Assembly (NCBI GenBank): GCA_022823865.1
Contig: JAJEHF010000066.1
Span: 1-64,000, forward strand
Reading direction: 5' to 3'
Source of the DNA: Bryobacterales bacterium
GTDB taxonomy: Bacteria; Acidobacteriota; Terriglobia; Bryobacterales; UBA6623
Length of the DNA: 64,000 nt
In this document: positions 3,753 to 14,140 of the stretch, in pieces
Layout of the letters: each line of letters begins with the position of its first letter
Position numbering within the stretch: the first letter of the stretch is position 1
Program-made: the position numbers and the translations under genes
Notes under the pieces: generated by a model
The model's database searches: none
The model's input: the letters and a program-made list of their open reading frames with translations, nothing else
Told to the model about the DNA's origin: nothing

Positions 3753-3820
3753 GTGCGATCAGGGGCAGGTGCATCACGACCATCTTGGTCTCGGTCATCT
3801 CTTCGACCGCGTAGTGCGGG
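3753..3820. repeat. Left direct repeat (copy of aldehyde dehydrogenase 3' end)
   Basis: This 68-nt stretch matches 12719-12785 with one extra G and one substitution (T at 3815, C at 12780). Read on the minus strand it encodes the aldehyde dehydrogenase tail YAVEEMTETKMVVMHLP. The extra G removes the stop, so this copy is a remnant. It has the layout expected of an attL-like junction of the 8.9 kb segment to its right. Confidence 0.75.
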
Positions 3821-4358
3821 TCCACGGGTCGACCTCGCTGCACCCGACCGAGCACCATTGGTCCATCCGTGCGAGCGCAGGCTGCAGTCGTCGCCACTCA
3901 TTGGCGGCGCAGCAGAACACGAATGGCTTCCTGCGATGAGCACGACAGAGTAAAAGGGTTGCTCTCGAAGAGCTGACGGAAGTATGTGTGGCTAGGGCAC
4001 CGTTACCGGCGATTGCGGCTGGACTCATTGCCCGACGCACAATGTCACGGACCGTTGAACTCGACAAACTACCGTACAGGGCGAGGAACCGTAGTTACAC
4101 CATCGCGTCTTGAGTGCGCGGCCACGCTCCGACGACGCGGTCCTGAGGCCCTGGCCTTGCTGAAATTAGCAAATACGGTTCTCGCTATACCTACGCGGTC
4201 GCGAGATCCTCGTCGTCCCAATGGACCCTCAGTTATTCGTAAGAGAACCTGCAGGATTGCAGACCGTCGGCGACCGGTTGTCGTTCGATACCATTGATCT
4301 TGCGTTAGCCCCGTACCCTCCTAACGGTGCGTGATGACTGTAAGGAGCTATACAACAA
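3821..4358. other. Intergenic stretch inside the left end of the island
   Basis: About 540 nt with no recognisable gene on either strand; short open frames here have no coding character I can identify. No integrase, tRNA or second repeat is visible. The 3' part carries the leader of the DUF262 gene, with AAGGAG at 4342-4347, 11 nt before its ATG. Confidence 0.5.
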
Positions 4359-5552
4359 ATGAACAATACCGCCGAAGTCGAATTTGGGGACGATGGGTTC
4401 GAGGACGAATCCATCGGCCAAGGGGATGAGAAAGAGAGTCTGGACGACTATTTCGCAGCTCGCTGGCCGCTTCGCGTGGTCTACCAGACCTCCACCTACT
4501 TCCTACCTCAGATCGTTGATTTGATCGGCGAGAATGGCAAGATCACACTCAGGCCAGAGTACCAACGGCGGCTCAGATGGAGCAACGTGAAGAAGTCGGC
4601 ACTCATCGAATCGATGCTCCTGAACATGCCGGTGCCGCCAATCTATCTCTACGAGAACGATGCCGCACGCTATGAAGTCATGGACGGGCAGCAACGGATT
4701 AATGCAATACGGGAGTTTCTTTCAAATCGATTGAAGCTTAGCGGATTGCGGATCTTGTCGCGCCTAAATGGCTTGAAGTATCAGGATTGTCCAGAGCGCG
4801 TGCTGCGCGCCCTAGAGCGCGCGAGCGTGTCTGCAATCGTGCTTCTGATGGAGAGCCATCAGGAATACCAGTCGATTCCAGACGTGAGGGTAGGCGATCT
4901 TCGGCGGCGCGTGTTTGATCGTCTGAACACCGGGGGAATCAACCTCAACCCGCACGAAGTCAGAAACGCAATGAATCCCGGCCACCTGAGAGAAGCGCTC
5001 GTTCGAATGAGTCAGCTTCCTGTGTTCACGGCGGCGTTCGGGATTCCAGAGTACGATCCGGACGACGAAGAGAATGAGAAGCGGATCAAGAATACGTTGT
5101 ATGCCAGCATGAAGGATTGCGAACTGGCGCTCAGGTTCGTCGCGCTTCGCGACGAGGATCAGATCCGTGGTGCCATGCGGAACAATCTGGATCGCGCCAT
5201 GGAGAAAGAACTGAGCCAAGAGGAAGCGGACACCCTCGTGGAGGAGTTCCGCGAACGTCTCGAGTTCCTTTCTGAGCTATTCGAGAACCGACCGTTCAGG
5301 ATCGAAGACCCAGGTGAAGCGAGCAGTCGTATTTACGCCGGCCTGTACGATGCGTCGATGATTGCACTGGACCGTCGCTGGGATCGCCGCGAGGCGATTA
5401 TGGAACGCGCGGCCGAGATTCGTGCGGAACTGCGCCGGGCGTTCGAGGACGACGAACAACACAAGATTCTGACCGGGCGGCGTAACACGGCGAGTGCCGT
5501 GCGGGAGAGGATTTCGCTTGTCGGAAATCTGCTGCTACGGGCGGGAAACTGA
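4359..5552 (+). CDS. DUF262 (ParB/Srx-like) domain protein
   Basis: A 397-residue protein. The N-terminal half is a DUF262 domain: the RPEYQRRLRWSNVKKSALIES segment, the hallmark DGQQR near residues 110-114, and FDRLNTGGINLNPHEVRNA. DUF262 proteins include the GmrS half of GmrSD type IV restriction enzymes and the N-terminus of SspE, where the domain hydrolyses NTPs and senses modified DNA. The DUF1524 His-Asn-His nuclease usually attached in those proteins is absent; the C-terminal half is charged and helical. The HEPN gene follows 2 nt downstream, so the nuclease activity may be supplied in trans. It converges on the cysteine-desulfurase operon. The ATG at 4359 is the natural start. Confidence 0.8.
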   Translation: MNNTAEVEFGDDGFEDESIGQGDEKESLDDYFAARWPLRVVYQTSTYFLPQIVDLIGENGKITLRPEYQRRLRWSNVKKSALIESMLLNMPVPPIYLYENDAARYEVMDGQQRINAIREFLSNRLKLSGLRILSRLNGLKYQDCPERVLRALERASVSAIVLLMESHQEYQSIPDVRVGDLRRRVFDRLNTGGINLNPHEVRNAMNPGHLREALVRMSQLPVFTAAFGIPEYDPDDEENEKRIKNTLYASMKDCELALRFVALRDEDQIRGAMRNNLDRAMEKELSQEEADTLVEEFRERLEFLSELFENRPFRIEDPGEASSRIYAGLYDASMIALDRRWDRREAIMERAAEIRAELRRAFEDDEQHKILTGRRNTASAVRERISLVGNLLLRAGN

Positions 5553-5554
5553 GC

Positions 5555-6313
5555 GTGGTTTCTCGGTTCCGGGCGGTGGCGGATGAGTTTTGCACCGAAG
5601 TTCAAGTAATCCAAGCCCTCGTGTCTGCATTCGATACAACTGAGGTGAGGCCAAAGTTGAGGGCTGCGGCGTCGAATTCCGCGATGCTCCTGCTTGCTGC
5701 GACATTCGAGGTCTTCGTGCGGGACATGGCGGGTGTGGTTGCTCGGGCCGCAGTGGCCAGCGCAGATGAGGTCGCCCGTATTCCGACCGGGATACTGCGA
5801 ACCGCATGGAAACGTGTGTTCGATTCCATCGCGCGTTTAGATTTACCGCAGAACACGAGGACTCAAGATATCCAACAGATTGTGGGTGATGCCGAAGCTC
5901 GCTCCGGGGCTGTATTTGCATTCTTGAGGGGCAACACCGAACAGGACATCTATGCCGATCTAGTGCAGCACGACGTCAACCTACGCACACAAGAGATCAA
6001 TCGGCTCTTCAGCATAAGCGGGGTGTCGGACGTGTGCGGGCTGGTGTCGCAGGAGCAAAACGTCGCCGACCACTTCCAAGCGGATCGTGCGAACGCGACC
6101 GGAAGAGAGCTGGGCGAGTTCATCGACCGTTTCATCGAGCAACGAAACAGCATCGCCCATTCGCTCACGTCAGCGTCTTCGGTGGGGGCGAATGAAGTAT
6201 CCAACCATATTGAGACGTTTCGTGTGTTCGCGACGGCACTTTGCGTGGTCTTGGAGCAGAGGTTTCCGCCAGCGGGGCGCAGGCGTGTAGGGCCTGAGAC
6301 GACGACACCGTAG
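5555..6313 (+). CDS. HEPN-like nuclease (MAE_28990/MAE_18760-like)
   Basis: A 252-residue, mostly helical protein starting with GTG 2 nt after the DUF262 stop, which implies translational coupling. Near the C-terminus it carries RNSIAH, an R-x4-H motif of the HEPN superfamily, the catalytic signature of HEPN ribonucleases in toxin and abortive-infection systems. An earlier helix (NSAMLLLAATFEVFVRDM) is typical of the HEPN proteins found beside DUF262 genes. The likely role is RNA cleavage on infection, with the DUF262 protein as sensor or partner; that is inference. Its 3' end faces the desulfurase gene tail-to-tail, leaving 21 nt. Confidence 0.7.
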   Translation: MVSRFRAVADEFCTEVQVIQALVSAFDTTEVRPKLRAAASNSAMLLLAATFEVFVRDMAGVVARAAVASADEVARIPTGILRTAWKRVFDSIARLDLPQNTRTQDIQQIVGDAEARSGAVFAFLRGNTEQDIYADLVQHDVNLRTQEINRLFSISGVSDVCGLVSQEQNVADHFQADRANATGRELGEFIDRFIEQRNSIAHSLTSASSVGANEVSNHIETFRVFATALCVVLEQRFPPAGRRRVGPETTTP

Positions 6314-6334
6314 CGCGGTGAGGCCGTAACTCTC

Positions 6335-7516
6335 TCAGCCGATGCCGACTCTTGCGGTTCGCCCAATCGGGGACGAGATCGAAAGTTGCCGCGCGGCGCT
6401 CCGGACGACATCGCCAGCGATGCGAATCTCTTCTTGGGTTGTGAACCGACCTACGCAGAACCGTAGCGACCTATCGGCCTCCGCTGAGGAGAGACCGTAG
6501 GCTACTAGAACGGGCGACGGCTCGGTGACTACCGACGCACAGGCTGATCCCGAAGAAGCCTGAACGCCCTCAAGGGCATCGAGCAATTCGTCGCCGCTCG
6601 CGCTGGGGAATCGCACGTTGAAAGCACCTGGCGCCCGGTGCGTTGGCGAACCGTTGAGCTCTGCGCGTGGAAATGCGTCGAGGATGGTCTTGAGTAGCTC
6701 CTCGGCCAGACTGCTCATGCGTTCTGCATCGACATGGACATCGATTGCTGCCACCCGACACGCTTCGCCGAAGCCAATGCACAGTGGAACAGGCAACGTG
6801 CCGGGTCGGAGACCGCCCTCTTGGCCGCCCCCCAATGTGACCGGTCTGATGCCATTCCTAGCACGGGTGCCGATGTAAAGTGCACCAATGCCCTTGGGTC
6901 CATAGCACTTATGGGCCGACAGGGTCAGGAGGTCGGCACCGAAATTGCGGACGTCCAAGGGTAGTCGCCCCAAAGATTGCGCACAGTCAGAATGCAGAAT
7001 CGCGCCGAAGCGTTGGCAGATCTCGGCGATGGCCGGAATCGCCTGAATGACCCCAGTCTCGTTGTTGACGTGCATGACCGATACGAGCAGCGTCCGCTCG
7101 TTGACCGCTCGTTCGACGGCGTCGAGGTCGACAATGCCGTCTGACTGGACCGGCAGCGTCTGGACGTCAAAACCCATTTCTCCCAACGCCTGCGCCGGCT
7201 CCAACACCGAACTGTGTTCGGTCCCTAGTGTGACAATCCCACGTCGGCCGGAGGAGGCCCGTGCCGCTCCAAACAGTGCCAAGTTGTTGGCTTCTGTCGC
7301 TCCCGATGTGAACACTACCCGGCGAGCGTCACCGCCAATAGCACGAGCTACTTGTCGTCGGGCTGTCTCTACTGCACGGGCAGCCTCGATTCCCGCCAAG
7401 TGGTTGGTAGAATGGGGGTTGCCGTAGAGTCCATCATTACGCGTCATTGCTGCCCTGACGCGGGGGTCGAGCGGAGTCGACGCTTGATGATCGAGATAGA
7501 TTGGGGCGTGCGCCAT
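6335..7516 (-). CDS. Cysteine desulfurase (IscS/NifS/DndA type)
   Basis: A 393-residue PLP enzyme that would take sulfur from cysteine as a protein persulfide. From the ATG at 7516: YLDHQASTPLDP at the N-terminus, cofactor-stacking His near 101 (TEHSS), PLP lysine near 203 in SAHKCYGPKG, and catalytic Cys near 326 in SSGSACAS, followed by TEPSPVL. It is the last gene of a five-gene minus-strand operon, 4 nt after a PP-loop protein that is its likely sulfur acceptor. No IscU, IscA or Fe-S operon genes are nearby, so a dedicated DndA/SspA-like role in nucleic-acid thiolation is more likely than housekeeping Fe-S assembly. An ATG at 7576 is open but would add 20 poorly conserved residues. Confidence 0.88.
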   Translation of the reverse strand: MAHAPIYLDHQASTPLDPRVRAAMTRNDGLYGNPHSTNHLAGIEAARAVETARRQVARAIGGDARRVVFTSGATEANNLALFGAARASSGRRGIVTLGTEHSSVLEPAQALGEMGFDVQTLPVQSDGIVDLDAVERAVNERTLLVSVMHVNNETGVIQAIPAIAEICQRFGAILHSDCAQSLGRLPLDVRNFGADLLTLSAHKCYGPKGIGALYIGTRARNGIRPVTLGGGQEGGLRPGTLPVPLCIGFGEACRVAAIDVHVDAERMSSLAEELLKTILDAFPRAELNGSPTHRAPGAFNVRFPSASGDELLDALEGVQASSGSACASVVTEPSPVLVAYGLSSAEADRSLRFCVGRFTTQEEIRIAGDVVRSAARQLSISSPIGRTARVGIG

Positions 7517-7520
7517 GCTG

Positions 7521-8864
7521 TTAGTCCGTGCAGTCGCACGGTAACGCTGCCCGGCCCGAGTAGCCCTCGAGCGCAACCAATTCGTCTTCGTCCAATTCGC
7601 TCAGGTCGCGGTAGGTCACATCGGCGTCGACGCCCCAGAAGCCGATAGTTACTTTCTTGTGGCTCCTCCGCCCCCGGCCCTTATATCGCTTCAGTGGACG
7701 GCGCTCATAGCGCGCCTCAAGGTTAGCCCACCAGTGGATGTCCGACGGGGTGTCAGCTACACTTCTGAGCTCCTCGGCGAGTACGACATCTGACAACGCG
7801 ACGTCTCGGCGGACCTTCGGAATGGCGGTAGTACCTTTCATGAAGCAGTAGACGCAGTTCGACAGGTTGGTCTCCGGCGCCAGTGCTAGCTTCCAATCGC
7901 GGTCTGCCCAGAAGGCAATGACGTCCTCGTTGCCGACACCGGCGTCCGCCAGCGGTGTGCACAGAATCTCGCCATCGGTCATTTCTCGGCTTGCTCGTTC
8001 GGGATTGCCTGAACCGAGACGGTTTCGCGCCATGACGCGGGCGACGCGACGGGGCTCGTCGGCGCGCAGCCCTATCAGCGATATGTACTCGACGGAGTCT
8101 TCGCCGCTCATTGGCGCGAACTCGGCGTAGCCTCGCTCCGCGAACGTCCCACGGGCCATGTGGCTCGCCCCTACACGCGAGAAGTTGGCGAAGTCCTGCT
8201 CAGGCAGCGCTGACGGGCGCGATCGCACAAAGGCCTTCTTGCGTAGGAGTTCGGCATCGTCCATCTTGCCGCGGGCTCGTCGGTGGCGCGAGATCACCCC
8301 GCTATCTGTCAACTGGGGCTCGGGATGAAAATGCCCGCGCCTTTCGGTTGTCTCCTTGCCGGCGAACCACTCGGCCAAGAAATCGTTTGTGGTTCGGAGT
8401 TTGAGGTGCGTTGTGCAGATGCGTTTGTGGCGGCTCGGCAAGAACCCTTGGTGGCTGACAAGTTCCTCGAAGACCTCGCCCCGCCACCGGTAGCCGGTCG
8501 GATTGGATTCATCGAGCGGCTGGTCATTGACGAGACGATAGCTTCCCCGCCTAGTCCACTCGCCCTTGTGAGCATCCTCGTAGGTTGCGTACTCAATCCA
8601 AAAGAAGGGAATGCCGTGCTCGACTTCCGCAAACCGGGAGCATGCACGCACGAAGTCGTAGGTGGCGGGGTGTTCGGCGGAGGTATTGTTGAAGACGATG
8701 ACGTCGCCGCGGTCTCGGTGTAGGAGGCCCTGCTCGAGGAGGAGCATTAGCATCATGCCGCTCGAGCGGCCGCCTGAGAACTTGACTACATGCGGCAGCG
8801 ACTCGTGCTCGGAGGCGTCGTACTCTAGATCGAGGCTGATTGCCTCACGCGGTTCGCCGTTCAT
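7521..8864 (-). CDS. PP-loop ATP pyrophosphatase, PAPS reductase/DndC-like
   Basis: A 447-residue protein of the adenine-nucleotide alpha-hydrolase (PAPS reductase/DndC) superfamily. It has the PP-loop variant SGGRSSG (residues 30-36), then FNNTSAEHPATYDFVRAC, which matches the PAPS-reductase motif around the nucleotide. Cysteines at about 150 (RICTTHLK), 302, 337 and 340 (NCVYC) could bind an iron-sulfur cluster, as in DndC. These proteins adenylate a substrate and transfer sulfur. Its ATG overlaps the upstream stop by 4 nt and the cysteine desulfurase lies 4 nt downstream, so the pair form a sulfur-transfer module. It is longer than assimilatory PAPS reductases (about 240 residues) and no cysteine biosynthesis genes are adjacent. 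Substrate unknown. Confidence 0.8.
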   Translation of the reverse strand: MNGEPREAISLDLEYDASEHESLPHVVKFSGGRSSGMMLMLLLEQGLLHRDRGDVIVFNNTSAEHPATYDFVRACSRFAEVEHGIPFFWIEYATYEDAHKGEWTRRGSYRLVNDQPLDESNPTGYRWRGEVFEELVSHQGFLPSRHKRICTTHLKLRTTNDFLAEWFAGKETTERRGHFHPEPQLTDSGVISRHRRARGKMDDAELLRKKAFVRSRPSALPEQDFANFSRVGASHMARGTFAERGYAEFAPMSGEDSVEYISLIGLRADEPRRVARVMARNRLGSGNPERASREMTDGEILCTPLADAGVGNEDVIAFWADRDWKLALAPETNLSNCVYCFMKGTTAIPKVRRDVALSDVVLAEELRSVADTPSDIHWWANLEARYERRPLKRYKGRGRRSHKKVTIGFWGVDADVTYRDLSELDEDELVALEGYSGRAALPCDCTD

Positions 8865-9733
8865 GCAGTCTCCTGCGAACCCAGAAACTGCTCCGCGATC
8901 AGTTTTCTCACGTATTCGGGTCCGAGTGCGCCGAGCGCTTGGACCGTGGTTCTGCGACCTATCCAGCCTAGCAAATCAGCGACTTCCCGACTTGTGCCGC
9001 CGGCACCATCGGCTAGGCATTGCGCGAGAGCTGGCCGTATGGCGCTGTCTCCAATCACAGTCAACTTAGAAACCATAGCTTCTACCAGTGCCTCCCAGCG
9101 GAACGCTGGCCGTAGTGCAGCGGATAGGTCTTCAACCCTACGGCGACCGAAGCACTTGTGGGCTTCCTTGGCGTAGCGGTGCCGCCACCAAGCTCTAGCC
9201 AGTGGACAGTCTAGGAAGGCCGTGCGGTTGGCGCGCGCCTCGATGACGCCGCCGAGGTGTCGGAGCACCGTGCGCACGCAGGCGTCCACCGGCTGCGGAT
9301 CGTCGCCCTTGAGCGCGCGAGCAATGAGCCTCTTGCCCGATTCGCCGTTCCCGCTGGCAGCGAGGTAGGAACTCCTGATGAGACCCCTCTCGATCATCTC
9401 AACGTGGATTCGCGTCCATGTCTCCGGGCGTGCAGCGAGATTTACAGGGAGATCCTCCCATGTGGACGCAATCACACACTCGGTGGACCAAGGAGGGTCC
9501 GATAGCTCTCGCTCGCTCAGAGGAGTATCCATGACTGGAGGCGTCTTGCCCTGCCGCAGCCCCCATGACTTCACTATCCGGCAAAACTCTGCATCGTCGC
9601 CTATGGCGAGATGAAGGAATGCGCGCTGCTCTTGGCCGCCGCGAGCGCCACTGTCACGCTTGGGCAGGAGGTTCTTCTGAGCCTGTTCAAGGCCCGGGCG
9701 GTCGATGGTCTCAATATCCAGCGGATCAATCAT
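8861..9733 (-). CDS. Uncharacterised protein, middle gene of thiolation-like operon
   Basis: A 290-residue protein with no family I can name. The ATG at 9733 overlaps the preceding stop by 8 nt and its own stop overlaps the next ATG by 4 nt, strong signs of translational coupling, so I prefer it to the longer reading from 9826. The sequence looks mostly helical and basic, has no signal peptide or membrane segment, and contains a Trp/Arg-rich patch near the middle (RAWWRHRYAKEAHKCFGRRR). The repeated helices toward the C-terminus might form an all-alpha scaffold. Its fixed place between the GHKL/272-residue pair and the sulfur genes argues for a structural or specificity role in the same complex. 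Confidence 0.7.
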   Translation of the reverse strand: MIDPLDIETIDRPGLEQAQKNLLPKRDSGARGGQEQRAFLHLAIGDDAEFCRIVKSWGLRQGKTPPVMDTPLSERELSDPPWSTECVIASTWEDLPVNLAARPETWTRIHVEMIERGLIRSSYLAASGNGESGKRLIARALKGDDPQPVDACVRTVLRHLGGVIEARANRTAFLDCPLARAWWRHRYAKEAHKCFGRRRVEDLSAALRPAFRWEALVEAMVSKLTVIGDSAIRPALAQCLADGAGGTSREVADLLGWIGRRTTVQALGALGPEYVRKLIAEQFLGSQETA

Positions 9734-10544
9734 CTGGGTTGGCAGTGAAGCTGAGAGGTCGTAGGCGGCTGGCGACTTCGTCTGGATTGAAGGAGTTGCC
9801 ATCTTCCCAAGTACCGAGCCCATCATCCACTAGCCGCCTGTGCAATGCACGCAGTACGGGGAACTCGCGCCAGCGGTCTGTGTCACCGAACTCAGCGTGG
9901 ATCAGCTCAAATGCTCGCGAGAGGCATCCAGTGAGGATTGAATCGCGATGGCGCGTCTTGTCAGGATTGACCATCCACCAAAAGAGTTTCGGATGCATTT
10001 GGACTATGAAGTGGAGTCCTTCACCCGTATTCATCTCTACCCGATAAGCGCCCTCGGAGAGTTCGTCGTTCGAGGCGAGGCGGATCAGGCTCTCCATCGT
10101 GGATGAGGTACGCCAAAATTGATCGTGGGCGAGGATGGTGCCAGGGGCCACTGAGACCTCGACATCGTGCCAGAGGTCGTGAACGCCATGCTGGCCGTTC
10201 AGCCTAACCGAAATGGGCTTGTCCAGCACCGAGATGACTAGCGGACGCACGTAAACCGGCGGAACAATCTTCTCGGTCTCCCAAGTAACCTCTTGTGTCA
10301 GCGTGATCTCACGACGTGGTTCGGCGATGTGTATTCGCCTGTATGTGGCGTAGGGCGAAGAAACCTCGGTGGCGAAGGCTGCCTCGCCGCGTTCGAGGAG
10401 GCCGACGACCAGATTGCTTCCGTCAACCGCATGGCGGACAGCCATGCCGTTGCCTTGCGGGAGGCGCGCGATGGCTGTGACGTAGGTACCGTTTACGTAA
10501 TCGAGGCGATCTTGGGACAAGACCGGATAATTGCCGTTCAGCAT
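9726..10544 (-). CDS. Uncharacterised 272-residue protein of the same operon
   Basis: No recognised domain. The protein starts at ATG 10544, 3 nt after the GHKL gene stop, and its last 8 nt overlap the start of the next gene. It is rich in beta-strand-like segments in the first two thirds and ends with a helical part (SRAFELIHAEFGDTDRW, then LRALHRRLVDDG). No signal peptide or transmembrane helix is visible and no catalytic motif stands out. It may be a subunit working with the GHKL ATPase, judged only from coupling and order. Confidence 0.7.
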   Translation of the reverse strand: MLNGNYPVLSQDRLDYVNGTYVTAIARLPQGNGMAVRHAVDGSNLVVGLLERGEAAFATEVSSPYATYRRIHIAEPRREITLTQEVTWETEKIVPPVYVRPLVISVLDKPISVRLNGQHGVHDLWHDVEVSVAPGTILAHDQFWRTSSTMESLIRLASNDELSEGAYRVEMNTGEGLHFIVQMHPKLFWWMVNPDKTRHRDSILTGCLSRAFELIHAEFGDTDRWREFPVLRALHRRLVDDGLGTWEDGNSFNPDEVASRLRPLSFTANPDD

Positions 10545-10547
10545 CGG

Positions 10548-12473
10548 TCAGTCTCCGTTGGTGGTGGCCGCTCGGCGAACCAGTTCGATCCGGAGGTTGC
10601 CTATGGACGTCGTAGGCCGACAGGGCAACCAGATGTCTAGCTCCTCAGCCGCAGAGGAAACGGGGCCGAGGAGCACTGCTCGGTTCCTGCCGTCATGATC
10701 AGGCACGTAGCCCTTCACCGGTTTGCCGCCGATTGTTGCGCCGGAGGTGATCTCGAGGAACTGATCAGGCTCAGGACTATCGCATGTCTCGTCTGATCCA
10801 TTAGAGATCACCACGCGGAGTTCGGCATTGAGGGCGTCGGCGAGGGGTTTGGCGCGCAAACGCAGTCCGCGGGTGCGCCGGACGGCGACGAAGCGAGCGT
10901 CGATGCGCTTGCCTTGGCGGCGGAGACGCCGTCGAGGACGGGGAGTGGGATTAGGATTCGGCGATGGACCTGGCGAGGGAGGTTCAGGCCTCGGTACCCG
11001 TTCGGGGGTACCCTGGCCAGCCGTAGCAGCCCGCGGGTTCTTGCGTACGCCGTCTCCCAGTACCTCGACTGAAAAGAATCCTGGATCGTGCTCTTTCGAG
11101 TCGATCTTCGGCACGAGCGCAAGCACCTTGTCGTGGAGTTCGTTGAAGAAAGCATCTAGGGCTCGTCGGTCAGCCGCGCCGCGCTTTTGCCGGGTTAGGT
11201 CGATGTCTATGTGCCTAGGACCCTCGAAAACACCAACCAGTCGGCAGGCTTCCTTTGCATTTAAGGGGTCCAGCAGCACAACGCCGTTGAAGGGGACCAC
11301 GTTGCGGTAGTCGGAGGCTCGGTTGTGCGGCACATCGTTCGTTATCCACATGCCGTTGCGGAACAACTGCAAGTGCGTTCCACCGGCGTCGGCCGGCAAC
11401 TCCCGGAAGTGGAACAGCACAGTGCCCGCGCTGGTTTCGATCTTGTGGCCATACTCGGTCTTGAGGGTCTCGAGCGTGTGCCACGCTTGGCGTCCGCTCG
11501 GTCCGATCGAGTTGCGGTCACGTCGTTCACGCTGCTTGCGGCCGGCGAGAATCCGCTCTACGACCTCGGCGTCGATGGTTCTCGGCGGCCTGTCAGCAGC
11601 GAGGAGTTCGACGGCCATACGTTTTTCGCGGATGGCGGGGGTGAAATGGGTCGCGACCACCGTCTCCACGATGTCAAGCACTTCTTCGTCGTCTTCGCAG
11701 CGGTTGAAGCGGTTGAAACCCATTACGCCGACGACGGATCCGGTTGCGAACTGCTGCTCGATCCGGTCGAGCTTTTTCTTTAGAAGCGGGATGCCAGATC
11801 CGTCGTAGAAGTCGAAACGGTCGAATAGGTGGTCTGTTCGGACAGTCCTAGCAAGGAAGCCGTCCTCGCCAAGAAGCTTCTCTTGGTAGAGATGCGTTGC
11901 GAGGATGGTGTGTCCTGATACAGTCCGCCCCTCGTGGTGAACGCCTCCGTAGAGGATATAGCGCGGGTCGGAAGCCGGAAACGACGTCATGTGGCCATTG
12001 CCATAGGATCCCGCTGTTGACTCGTCTGCCTTGCTGCTCTGGCCATCGCCGAGGAGGGCCTCCATGCCCTGCGCATCTAGGCCGATGCCGTTGTCCAGCA
12101 CCCACATGACGGGCATACGGTCTTTCTTGATGGCATCTTCCATAGCGTCAACCATGGCTTTGGACTGCGCCAAGTTGCGCTTCCTACGTTGAGTGTCGAT
12201 GGCGCACCGAAGGTGGTCGCGATACTGGGCAAGAGCCGGAACTTCCGCGGTAGCGACCTCATCGATCTCGAATACCACGCGGACGACATCGCGGTTTGCG
12301 GTCATCGCCGCATCAAGCGCGTTCTGGACCAGTTCCCGCACGATGGTGTGTGGATCGACGTTGTTATAGGCGGAAAGGCCAGACGAACGAAAACCATAGA
12401 ACTTTGCTGTGCGAATGAACTGCAGTTCAGCCTGTTCGCGTCGGCTCACGTCAACGCTACCCGCTTCAACCAA
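10548..12473 (-). CDS. GHKL-type (Hsp90/MutL/MORC-like) ATPase
   Basis: A 641-residue protein and first gene of the operon. The Bergerat ATP fold is clear: N box RELVQNALDAA (Glu47, Asn51, Asp54), G1 box DNGIGL (127-132) and G2 box GSYGNGH (155-161). No histidine-kinase phosphoacceptor domain is present. A proline-rich linker (about residues 480-515, PSPGPSPNPNPTPRPRRR) joins a small C-terminal beta-rich domain. Such ATPases act as nucleotide-gated clamps in Hsp90, MutL, topoisomerases and some defence proteins. The start is TTG 12473, supported by GGGAGG 7 nt upstream; a possible -10 (TATGAT, 12514-12509) lies just before. In this operon it takes the place where Dnd/Ssp systems have an SMC-like or P-loop ATPase. 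Confidence 0.82.
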   Translation of the reverse strand: MVEAGSVDVSRREQAELQFIRTAKFYGFRSSGLSAYNNVDPHTIVRELVQNALDAAMTANRDVVRVVFEIDEVATAEVPALAQYRDHLRCAIDTQRRKRNLAQSKAMVDAMEDAIKKDRMPVMWVLDNGIGLDAQGMEALLGDGQSSKADESTAGSYGNGHMTSFPASDPRYILYGGVHHEGRTVSGHTILATHLYQEKLLGEDGFLARTVRTDHLFDRFDFYDGSGIPLLKKKLDRIEQQFATGSVVGVMGFNRFNRCEDDEEVLDIVETVVATHFTPAIREKRMAVELLAADRPPRTIDAEVVERILAGRKQRERRDRNSIGPSGRQAWHTLETLKTEYGHKIETSAGTVLFHFRELPADAGGTHLQLFRNGMWITNDVPHNRASDYRNVVPFNGVVLLDPLNAKEACRLVGVFEGPRHIDIDLTRQKRGAADRRALDAFFNELHDKVLALVPKIDSKEHDPGFFSVEVLGDGVRKNPRAATAGQGTPERVPRPEPPSPGPSPNPNPTPRPRRRLRRQGKRIDARFVAVRRTRGLRLRAKPLADALNAELRVVISNGSDETCDSPEPDQFLEITSGATIGGKPVKGYVPDHDGRNRAVLLGPVSSAAEELDIWLPCRPTTSIGNLRIELVRRAATTNGD

Positions 12474-12718
12474 TCTGCAACCTCCCAGTGGACCAACAGG
12501 GCGGGACGATCATAGCTTGCACGATTCACCAATCCTCTGGACTTGGGGGACGACTACGGCGCATTTCCAGATGTACCCCCTCGCAGCACGGGTGAATATC
12601 GTCTTGACTCCTGACGGCTCCGTAGGTAACGAAATGCAACGTAGCCTAAGCCCGCAGATAGAACACTTTAGCGCACTGGCAGGCGAGCTACCGTCGGCCT
12701 TGTTTCGATGCCGCCATG

Positions 12719-12785
12719 GTGCGATCAGGGCAGGTGCATCACGACCATCTTGGTCTCGGTCATCTCTTCGACCGCGTAGCGCGGG
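12719..12785. repeat. Right direct repeat, in the intact aldehyde dehydrogenase gene
   Basis: A 67-nt match to 3753-3820, covering the last codons and stop of the intact aldehyde dehydrogenase gene. This copy retains the stop. With the left copy it brackets 8,898 bp containing the DUF262-HEPN and GHKL-PP-loop-desulfurase genes, in the same orientation, as expected for attR. Confidence 0.75.
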
Positions 12786-14140
12786 CCTTCCTTGCCGAAG
12801 CCGCTCTCCTTGAGGCCGCCGTAGGGCATCAGGTCGGCTCGCCACTGGGTGCCCCAGTTGATATGGATGTTGCCCGAATCGACTTCCTTGGCGAAGCGCA
12901 TCGCGTTGTCGAGGCTCTCGGTGAAAATCGCCGCGGACAGCCCGTAGTTGGTGTCGTTGGCGCTGGCGATGGCCGCGTCCACCGACTCGAACGGCGTCAG
13001 GCCGACGGCCGGCCCGAACAGCTCGTCGCAGGAAATACGCATGTCGGGGCTGACATCGGCCACGATGGCAGGCTCGACGATGGCCCTGTCGCGCTCTCCG
13101 CCGGCGAGCAGGCGGCCGCCCGTTGCGGCCGCGTCGCGGATCCACTCTTGCACGCGAATCGCGTCGTTCTCGCGCACCATCGGGCCGACGCGGACGTCGT
13201 CGTCGAGTGGATTGCCCGTCTGCAGGCCCTGCACGCGGGGGCCGAGGTTGTCCAGCAATTCGGAGTAGACCTTCTCGTGGGCGAGGATGCGCTGTGCGCT
13301 GATGCAGACTTGGCCGGCATTGGCGAAGCCGGTCGCCACGATGGCGTTCGCGGCCTTGTCCAGATCGGCATCCGGCAGCACGATGACGGGCGAGTTGCTG
13401 CCGAGTTCCATCGTGACTTTCTTCAGCCCCGCCATTCCGCAGATGGCCTCGCCGACGTCACGGCTCCCGGTGAAGCTGATCTTGCGGATGCGCGGGTCCG
13501 AGCACAGCTGGCGGCCGACTTCGCTGCCCGAGCCAGTCACGACTTGGATGGCCTCCGGAGGCAGGCCCGCGTCCAGCAGCACCTTGGCGAACTTCAGCGC
13601 CACCAGAGGGGTGTCCGTGGCGGGCTTGAGAATGGCGCTGTTGCCGGCCGCGAACGCGGGGCCGATCTTGTGGCATACAAGGTTGAGCGGGAAGTTGAAC
13701 GGAGTCACCGCGAGCACCACGCCGCACGGCACGCGCAGCGTGAAGCCGAAGCGGTTGCCGGCGGCTGGCGCCCCGTCCAGCGGCACGACTTCCGAGCCCA
13801 GCCGCTTGGCCTCTTCGGCCGAGCCGATCATCGTTTCCCGGGCGCGGTCCACTTCGAGGCGGGCCTCGGCGATGATCTTGCCCTCTTCGAGAGTGATGGT
13901 GCGGGCCAGATCCTCGAGACGCTCCTCCATCAGGGCGGCAGCCTTCATCAGCAGGTGGTAGCGTTCGTAGCCAGACAGCGCCTTGACGTTCCTGGCACCT
14001 TCCACCGCGAATGCGATGGCGCGGTCGATGTCGGCGCTGGAGGCGCGCGGCACGGTGTCGACCTCGCTGCCGTCGTATGGATTCAGGACCGGAATTGAGC
14101 CTGAGCCGCCGGTCCAGTCTCCCGCAATGAGCATCTCCAT
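12725..14140 (-). CDS. NAD(P)-dependent aldehyde dehydrogenase
   Basis: A 471-residue member of the aldehyde dehydrogenase superfamily that oxidises an aldehyde to the acid. Visible are the PFNFPLNL segment and KPATDTP of the cofactor pocket, the general base Glu245 in TMELGSNSP, and the nucleophile Cys279 in NAGQVCIS. Sequence style fits the lactaldehyde/phosphonoacetaldehyde/non-phosphorylating GAPDH branch, so the substrate stays open. ATG 14140 is preceded by GAGGAG at good spacing. Its 3' end is duplicated at 3753-3820, marking it as the probable insertion site of the accessory segment downstream. It is divergent from the ThyX-like gene. Confidence 0.9.
   Translation of the reverse strand: MEMLIAGDWTGGSGSIPVLNPYDGSEVDTVPRASSADIDRAIAFAVEGARNVKALSGYERYHLLMKAAALMEERLEDLARTITLEEGKIIAEARLEVDRARETMIGSAEEAKRLGSEVVPLDGAPAAGNRFGFTLRVPCGVVLAVTPFNFPLNLVCHKIGPAFAAGNSAILKPATDTPLVALKFAKVLLDAGLPPEAIQVVTGSGSEVGRQLCSDPRIRKISFTGSRDVGEAICGMAGLKKVTMELGSNSPVIVLPDADLDKAANAIVATGFANAGQVCISAQRILAHEKVYSELLDNLGPRVQGLQTGNPLDDDVRVGPMVRENDAIRVQEWIRDAAATGGRLLAGGERDRAIVEPAIVADVSPDMRISCDELFGPAVGLTPFESVDAAIASANDTNYGLSAAIFTESLDNAMRFAKEVDSGNIHINWGTQWRADLMPYGGLKESGFGKEGPRYAVEEMTETKMVVMHLP

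Follow-up and report, generated by a model that had tools for sequence, protein, structure and literature searches.

Among natural modifications of the DNA backbone, phosphorothioation (PT) is the best known. As a rule, to our knowledge, the insertion of sulfur requires a partner of the DndDE or the SspBC/BREX type. The Dnd system joins the cysteine desulfurase DndA and the PP-loop enzyme DndC to the ABC-type DndD and to DndE, and the Ssp system contains the SspB (DUF4007) nickase and the SspC ATPase besides SspA and SspD. In BREX type 4, which exchanges methylation for PT, a PAPS-reductase-type PT writer is joined to another defence platform (PMC12839542). Furthermore, PADLOC models PDC-M33, an uncharacterised candidate of three proteins, whose plasmid trios are found beside methyltransferase-based restriction-modification (R-M) genes.

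The window analysed here, the whole stretch of 64,000 nucleotides from contig JAJEHF010000066.1 of a Bryobacterales bacterium that is probably a sponge symbiont, contains a five-gene operon related to these systems. It shares with Dnd and Ssp a desulfurase of the DndA/SspA type and a PP-loop enzyme, P0002, which resembles SspD over a short stretch and is far from DndC, and it resembles BREX type 4 in joining a writer of this type to a different platform. However, the operon has no ABC-type DndD and no DndE, it shows a GHKL ATPase and two proteins, B and C, in the place of SspB and SspC, and PglZ, BrxC, BrxL and DUF4007 are absent from it. The GHKL-B-C trio corresponds to PDC-M33 protein by protein and in gene order, by profile homology that for C comes from its relatives and from DUF6339, but in the window it is linked to a PP-loop gene. 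The operon probably encodes a kind of DNA PT machinery that the searched literature does not describe, and it looks like one that serves defence against viruses. A literature search whose scope excluded bioRxiv found no paper which joins PT with a GHKL protein and none which names PDC-M33 or DUF6339. The first-pass annotation had put the operon forward as a candidate undescribed one, which needs the qualification that PADLOC-DB already models the trio as an uncharacterised candidate.

Layout, mobility and proteins of the operon

The gene order of the window, GHKL-B-C-PP-CD, is designated type I (Table 1). All five minus-strand ORFs and their short junctions are as the first-pass annotation described them, with a gap of 3 nt, overlaps of 8 and 4 nt and a gap of 4 nt from the GHKL gene to the desulfurase gene, according to the ORF coordinates. 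The DUF262 and HEPN genes converge on the operon, leaving 21 nt to the end of the desulfurase gene, and this previously proposed pair is real by Pfam profiles (PF03235, 1.2e-24; PF18735, 2.3e-10). The DUF262 protein also matches the NsnA model (6.8e-62).

Table 1. Coordinates of the operon, the accessory genes and the island boundaries in the window.
Feature	Coordinates	Strand	Remarks
Left copy of 58-bp direct repeat	3763..3820	.	Duplicated ALDH 3' end, island boundary
DUF262/GmrSD_N protein	4359..5552	+	397 aa, accessory, convergent with operon
RiboL-PSP-type HEPN protein	5555..6313	+	252 aa, probable RNase effector
Cysteine desulfurase, DndA/SspA-like	6335..7516	-	393 aa, ATG start
PP-loop/PAPS-reductase-like sulfur transferase (P0002)	7521..8864	-	447 aa
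Protein C, DUF6339/PDC-M33C relative	8861..9733	-	290 aa, all-alpha
Protein B, PDC-M33B relative	9726..10544	-	272 aa, beta-sandwich-like domain and helical C-terminus
GHKL (Hsp90/MutL-type) ATPase, PDC-M33A relative	10548..12473	-	641 aa, TTG start
Aldehyde dehydrogenase (ALDH) gene	12725-14140	-	
Right copy of 58-bp repeat	12728..12785	.	Native ALDH 3' end

Both gene groups lie in an island (3763-12785) bounded by two copies of a 58-bp repeat which are 98% identical; the duplication and the island limits are additions to what the first-pass annotation saw. Four genomes of the same genus (L024-L027) show an empty site, where both flanks are adjacent and overlap by 57-58 bp, corresponding to a single repeat copy, and therefore 8.97 kb carrying both gene groups have been inserted. 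In the sister genome G001 the operon is found at the same ALDH gene and is also adjoined by the HEPN gene. The GC content of the island is 59.6%, in relation to 62.7 and 65.8% on its two sides. The 58-bp duplication and the empty sites show that the module is mobile and travels as an island. The repeat at the ALDH 3' end is att-like, yet the island is without a recombinase of its own, as no integrase or recombinase was found between 3763 and 12785.

The GHKL protein shows the Hsp90-like N-terminal ATPase domain of NF047352/PRK14083 (4e-7), its N-terminal part matches PDC-M33A of PADLOC (2.3e-16), and the motifs E47, N51, D127, G129, G131 and GxxGxGH are present in 66/66 homologues. Protein B matches the PADLOC profile PDC-M33B (6.6e-5) and is homologous to the B proteins of the plasmid trios (hhalign probability 98.9). 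Protein C is related to DUF6339 (hhalign probability 89, E 2e-6); eight of the 62 members of its family match PDC-M33C, weakly, the window copy itself has no match, and a PDC-M33C search of four genomes found nothing, this model being too distant. U272 and U321 show no relation to each other. Neither B nor C matches Pfam or NCBIfam above cut-off. AlphaFold gave confident models of both (pLDDT of 91.9 for B and 94.9 for C), which matched no PDB entry at E<=0.001; weak Ig/FN3-like matches were the only ones for the B model, and there were none for C. In these models, B and C bear no resemblance to DndB, DndE, SspB or nucleases. The DndD, DndE, SspB and SspC models match none of the seven island proteins, and the BREX models find nothing in the operon beyond a weak BrxP match to P0002. 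The profile scans agree with the first-pass annotation on the absence of DndB, DndD, DndE, SspB and SspC from the operon. The two proteins that it left unassigned, B and C, might have turned out to be divergent parts of these systems; the Dnd, Ssp and BREX models gave no match to either, and nor did the PDB folds at E<=0.001. A divergent Dnd/Ssp identity was rejected on profiles and folds.

The desulfurase matches the SspA and DndA models with 428 and 426 bits in the profile scan, and PF00266 (class V aminotransferase) at 8e-75, although it stays under the NCBIfam DndA equivalog cut-off (345 vs 480 bits). The PLP-lysine motif SAHK and the cysteine motif SSGSAC can be read in its sequence. A housekeeping IscS pathway is unlikely for this enzyme, which scores 390 bits with the IscS equivalog (cut-off 643 bits) and is encoded in a mobile island. 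P0002 matches the SspD model at 2.3e-8, covering residues 135-168 only, while its BrxP match is weak (0.005) and its best DndC model reaches 0.03. Across the family, SspD is matched by 66/68 members (best 1e-13) and BrxP by 35/68. The SGG..S loop residues and C150, C337 and C340 are invariant in 68/68 PP-loop homologues, and C443/C445 are kept in 65/68. The GHKL, PP-loop and desulfurase identities given earlier are borne out by profile scans (NF047352, SspD and SspA/PF00266, respectively). The PDC-M33 models do not match the PP-loop family, the PP-loop protein has no match among plasmid records, and PDB sequence searches with the B, C and PP-loop profiles gave chance matches only.

Distribution and variants of the gene set

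Within the genus, the GHKL gene was found in 5 of 11 genomes, counting that of the window, in three gene orders, and within the phylum the PP-loop protein was found in 4 of 396 sampled genomes. From a collection with one genome per species, 80 loci were kept after a scan, whose carriers are Campylobacterota, Gammaproteobacteria, Actinomycetota, Gemmatimonadota and Verrucomicrobiota, as well as many MAGs with sponge-symbiont names; reading the record titles, many hosts appear to be sponge symbionts. PT genes are reported to be enriched in sponge metagenomes (PMC5099237). Among the 38 loci, from about 10 phyla, with at least 6 kb on either side of the PP-loop gene, PP-loop, GHKL, B and C occur together in 36, according to in-house profiles. 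The desulfurase gene is optional, being no more than 3 kb away at 20 of these 38 loci; DndA is likewise optional in Dnd systems (PMC10853773). The neighbourhood survey suggested in the first-pass annotation thus places the gene set well beyond this organism, and a five-gene order unique to the window genome is ruled out by the same-genus and wider loci.

The PP-loop tree intermixes phyla. Distance matrices of the PP-loop protein and each trio member correlate with r of 0.88-0.91 (permutation maximum 0.21), and those of the trio members among themselves with 0.91-0.93; shared ancestry alone could be the source of part of the correlation between the PP-loop protein and the trio. At three loci a single PP-loop gene is accompanied by two trios: in L102 and L103 the paired copies resemble one old tandem duplication, and the second trio of L066 comes from another lineage. 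PP-loop genes without the trio were found alone (L063), on a phage-like contig (L091) or with a different partner (L106). A scan of IMG/VR with the PP-loop protein found one distant relative only, on a viral contig (L113:7021-7878); this gene and that of the phage-like contig (L091:3344-4549) are possibly phage-borne counter-defence or self-marking genes.

G/C tracts of 10-21 nt are present inside PP-loop (L087, L093, L107-L109, L111, L112), GHKL (L034, L041, L068, L070) and desulfurase (L058) genes, whereas the B and C genes are free of them. A run of G10-G18 at roughly the same site is shared by seven PP-loop genes, most or all of them from actinobacteria, and it is in frame in some and frameshifted in others. 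Runs of at least 10 nt number 13 in core genes, vs 4.5 expected, and the window copy has none. The pattern is as expected of phase-variable switches, and assembly errors could contribute to it.

The trio also occurs without sulfur genes. GHKL-B-DUF6339 trios that have no PP-loop gene were found on plasmids of Arthrobacter, Deinococcus, Priestia, Paenarthrobacter and L. salivarius. The neighbours of the plasmid trios are Dcm/Vsr/type II endonuclease, Dcm/MutH-type nuclease or N6-methyltransferase genes, and a Lactococcus trio lies near an AlwI-type endonuclease. At L114-L119, trios near type II R-M genes are carried by plasmids of lactobacillus, Lactococcus, Priestia, Deinococcus and Arthrobacter type, and their GHKL and B proteins are annotated as hypothetical. 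The GHKL proteins linked to a PP-loop gene fall into a well-supported clade apart from that of the plasmid proteins. As the plasmid trios show, the trio can occur apart from sulfur chemistry, and it might act as an effector; their place beside R-M genes, together with the homology of B and C, suggests that the trio partners DNA modification enzymes in a modular way. The DndD-DndE core, to which the trio may be compared, recruits cytosine methylases (PMC10853773), and the exchange of methylation for PT in BREX type 4 (PMC12839542) offers a similar comparison.

Phosphorothioation genes near the core

The neighbours of the core in related loci were clustered and then scanned with profiles. TIGR04096 (dnd_rel_methyl) is matched, by up to 2e-186, at L049, L051, L057, L058, L064, L083 and L100, DndB-like (DndB/DGQHR) proteins are encoded beside the core at L023, L048, L067 and L083, and a full-length SspE (1113 bits) adjoins it at L061. 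Other neighbours are PbeA-like helicases, PbeC-like ATPases and NF045808 SBD-HNH PT-DNA restriction enzymes, and DUF262 genes of one similarity cluster are present at 17 related loci. PDC-S01, SoFic, Zorya and a type II methyltransferase were also found near cores.

Whole-genome counts were made in 50 carrier genomes (49 for DUF4007), taking as near those matches at <=15 kb from the PP-loop gene. TIGR04096 has 8 of its 15 matches near the core (0.13 expected) and NF045808 has 6 of its 27 over-cut-off matches there (0.24 expected), Poisson values being optimistic since some related gammaproteobacterial loci are not independent. The rival writers, in contrast, are never near it (DndC, 0/12; DUF4007 of SspB/BREX-4, 0/21), so that the two PT families stand at 14/42 vs 0/33 (combined Fisher p=1.4e-4). 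Dnd and Ssp writers are also defence genes, and their absence near the core argues against plain defence-island clustering.

Three genomes, G168 (L061), G170 (L064) and G194 (L100, equal to the same-genus G003), have PT genes at the core and no match to DndC or DUF4007, which leaves the core as the sole candidate writer found in them. The genus has one NF045808 gene over cut-off, and it lies at the core of G003. The window genome shows no DndC (TIGR03183, 1e-15) and no NF045808 homologue, and its link to PT rests on homology with the related loci. The first-pass annotation had considered that the desulfurase and PP-loop protein might belong to a known tRNA or Fe-S pathway; in relatives the pair sits among PT genes, not tRNA or Fe-S genes.

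TIGR04096 and SBD-HNH genes occur as opposed neighbour pairs, 64-201 bp apart (G194:C10:87353-89841, G159:C82:2803-5025, G164:C145:235-2072). SBD-HNH enzymes cut PT DNA, so their coexistence with a PT writer would need a protection rule, and a methyl mark may shield self PT-DNA from this nuclease.

Proposed function and alternatives

The first-pass annotation left a choice between a new thio-modification system and a modification-independent complex. This proposal is supported and its alternatives are now partly separated: PT of DNA is favoured, with the trio as platform or effector. The PT reading is supported by an obligate four-gene core, three gene orders, many phyla, invariant catalytic motifs and PT neighbours. 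If the homologous pairs DndA-DndC and SspA-SspD are a guide, the desulfurase would take sulfur from cysteine and load the PP-loop protein, which would activate a DNA phosphate with ATP and insert the sulfur. GHKL, B and C would form an ATP-gated complex that engages DNA and both selects and presents it, replacing DndD-DndE or SspB-SspC, with the GHKL dimer as the clamp and B and C serving target choice. The sulfur mark would be read by separate, exchangeable effectors, such as SspE, SBD-HNH nucleases, Pbe-type helicase/ATPase and DUF262 proteins beside the core elsewhere. Effectors vary from locus to locus, and the likely reader/effector of the window locus is the DUF262-HEPN pair.

Alternatively, the PP-loop protein and desulfurase, maybe with a helper, might write PT or another sulfur mark on DNA, with the trio as an interference or surveillance arm that monitors DNA and acts where it is damaged or lacks the mark, regardless of which modification enzyme has set the self mark. 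The trios beside R-M genes on plasmids and the loci with two trios per PP-loop gene would fit such an arm; however, the PP-loop PT writers known so far depend on an ATPase and on a partner that binds DNA, for which the operon offers no other candidate, the PP-linked trio is a separate, well-supported clade that co-varies with the PP-loop protein, and the models of B and C show no nuclease fold. We regard this alternative as rather unlikely, and a role of the trio as writer platform is favoured over it.

Many thiolation pathways rely on cysteine desulfurases and PP-loop enzymes, and the sulfur might go to tRNA, a DNA base or a nucleotide, PT genes being near merely via defence-island clustering, as the non-PT defence genes near cores would allow. 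This is improbable, because the neighbours are often PT-specific while rival PT writers are missing within 15 kb, and the closest PP-loop models are SspD and BrxP. Those same likenesses, with that of the desulfurase to SspA/DndA, would suit a diverged form of Dnd, Ssp or BREX type 4 in which some parts escape recognition, but the operon gives no passing match to DndB/C/D/E, SspB/C or any other BREX model, the B and C folds are without PDB match at E<=0.001, and the ATPase is GHKL rather than ABC/SMC or AAA+, which makes this reading highly improbable.

Beyond the PT reading itself, we give about an even chance to a wider one, in which the operon represents a further, mechanistically distinct PT type besides Dnd, Ssp and BREX type 4. 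Here a GHKL (Hsp90/MutL-like) ATP-gated clamp and two novel-fold partners would bring a PP-loop sulfur transferase to DNA, the trio would serve methyl-based R-M elsewhere as a general 'modification companion', and poly-G tracts could switch the writer in several lineages. If true, the use of an unrelated GHKL platform would reveal which parts a PT writer cannot do without, and PT defence would extend to loci missed by present tools, in which the desulfurase is optional and B and C have no Pfam match. It would also help to explain why PT readers (SspE, SBD-HNH, Pbe) occur where DndC and DUF4007 are lacking, as in G168 and G194, and would suggest a function for the uncharacterised plasmid PDC-M33/DUF6339 trio.
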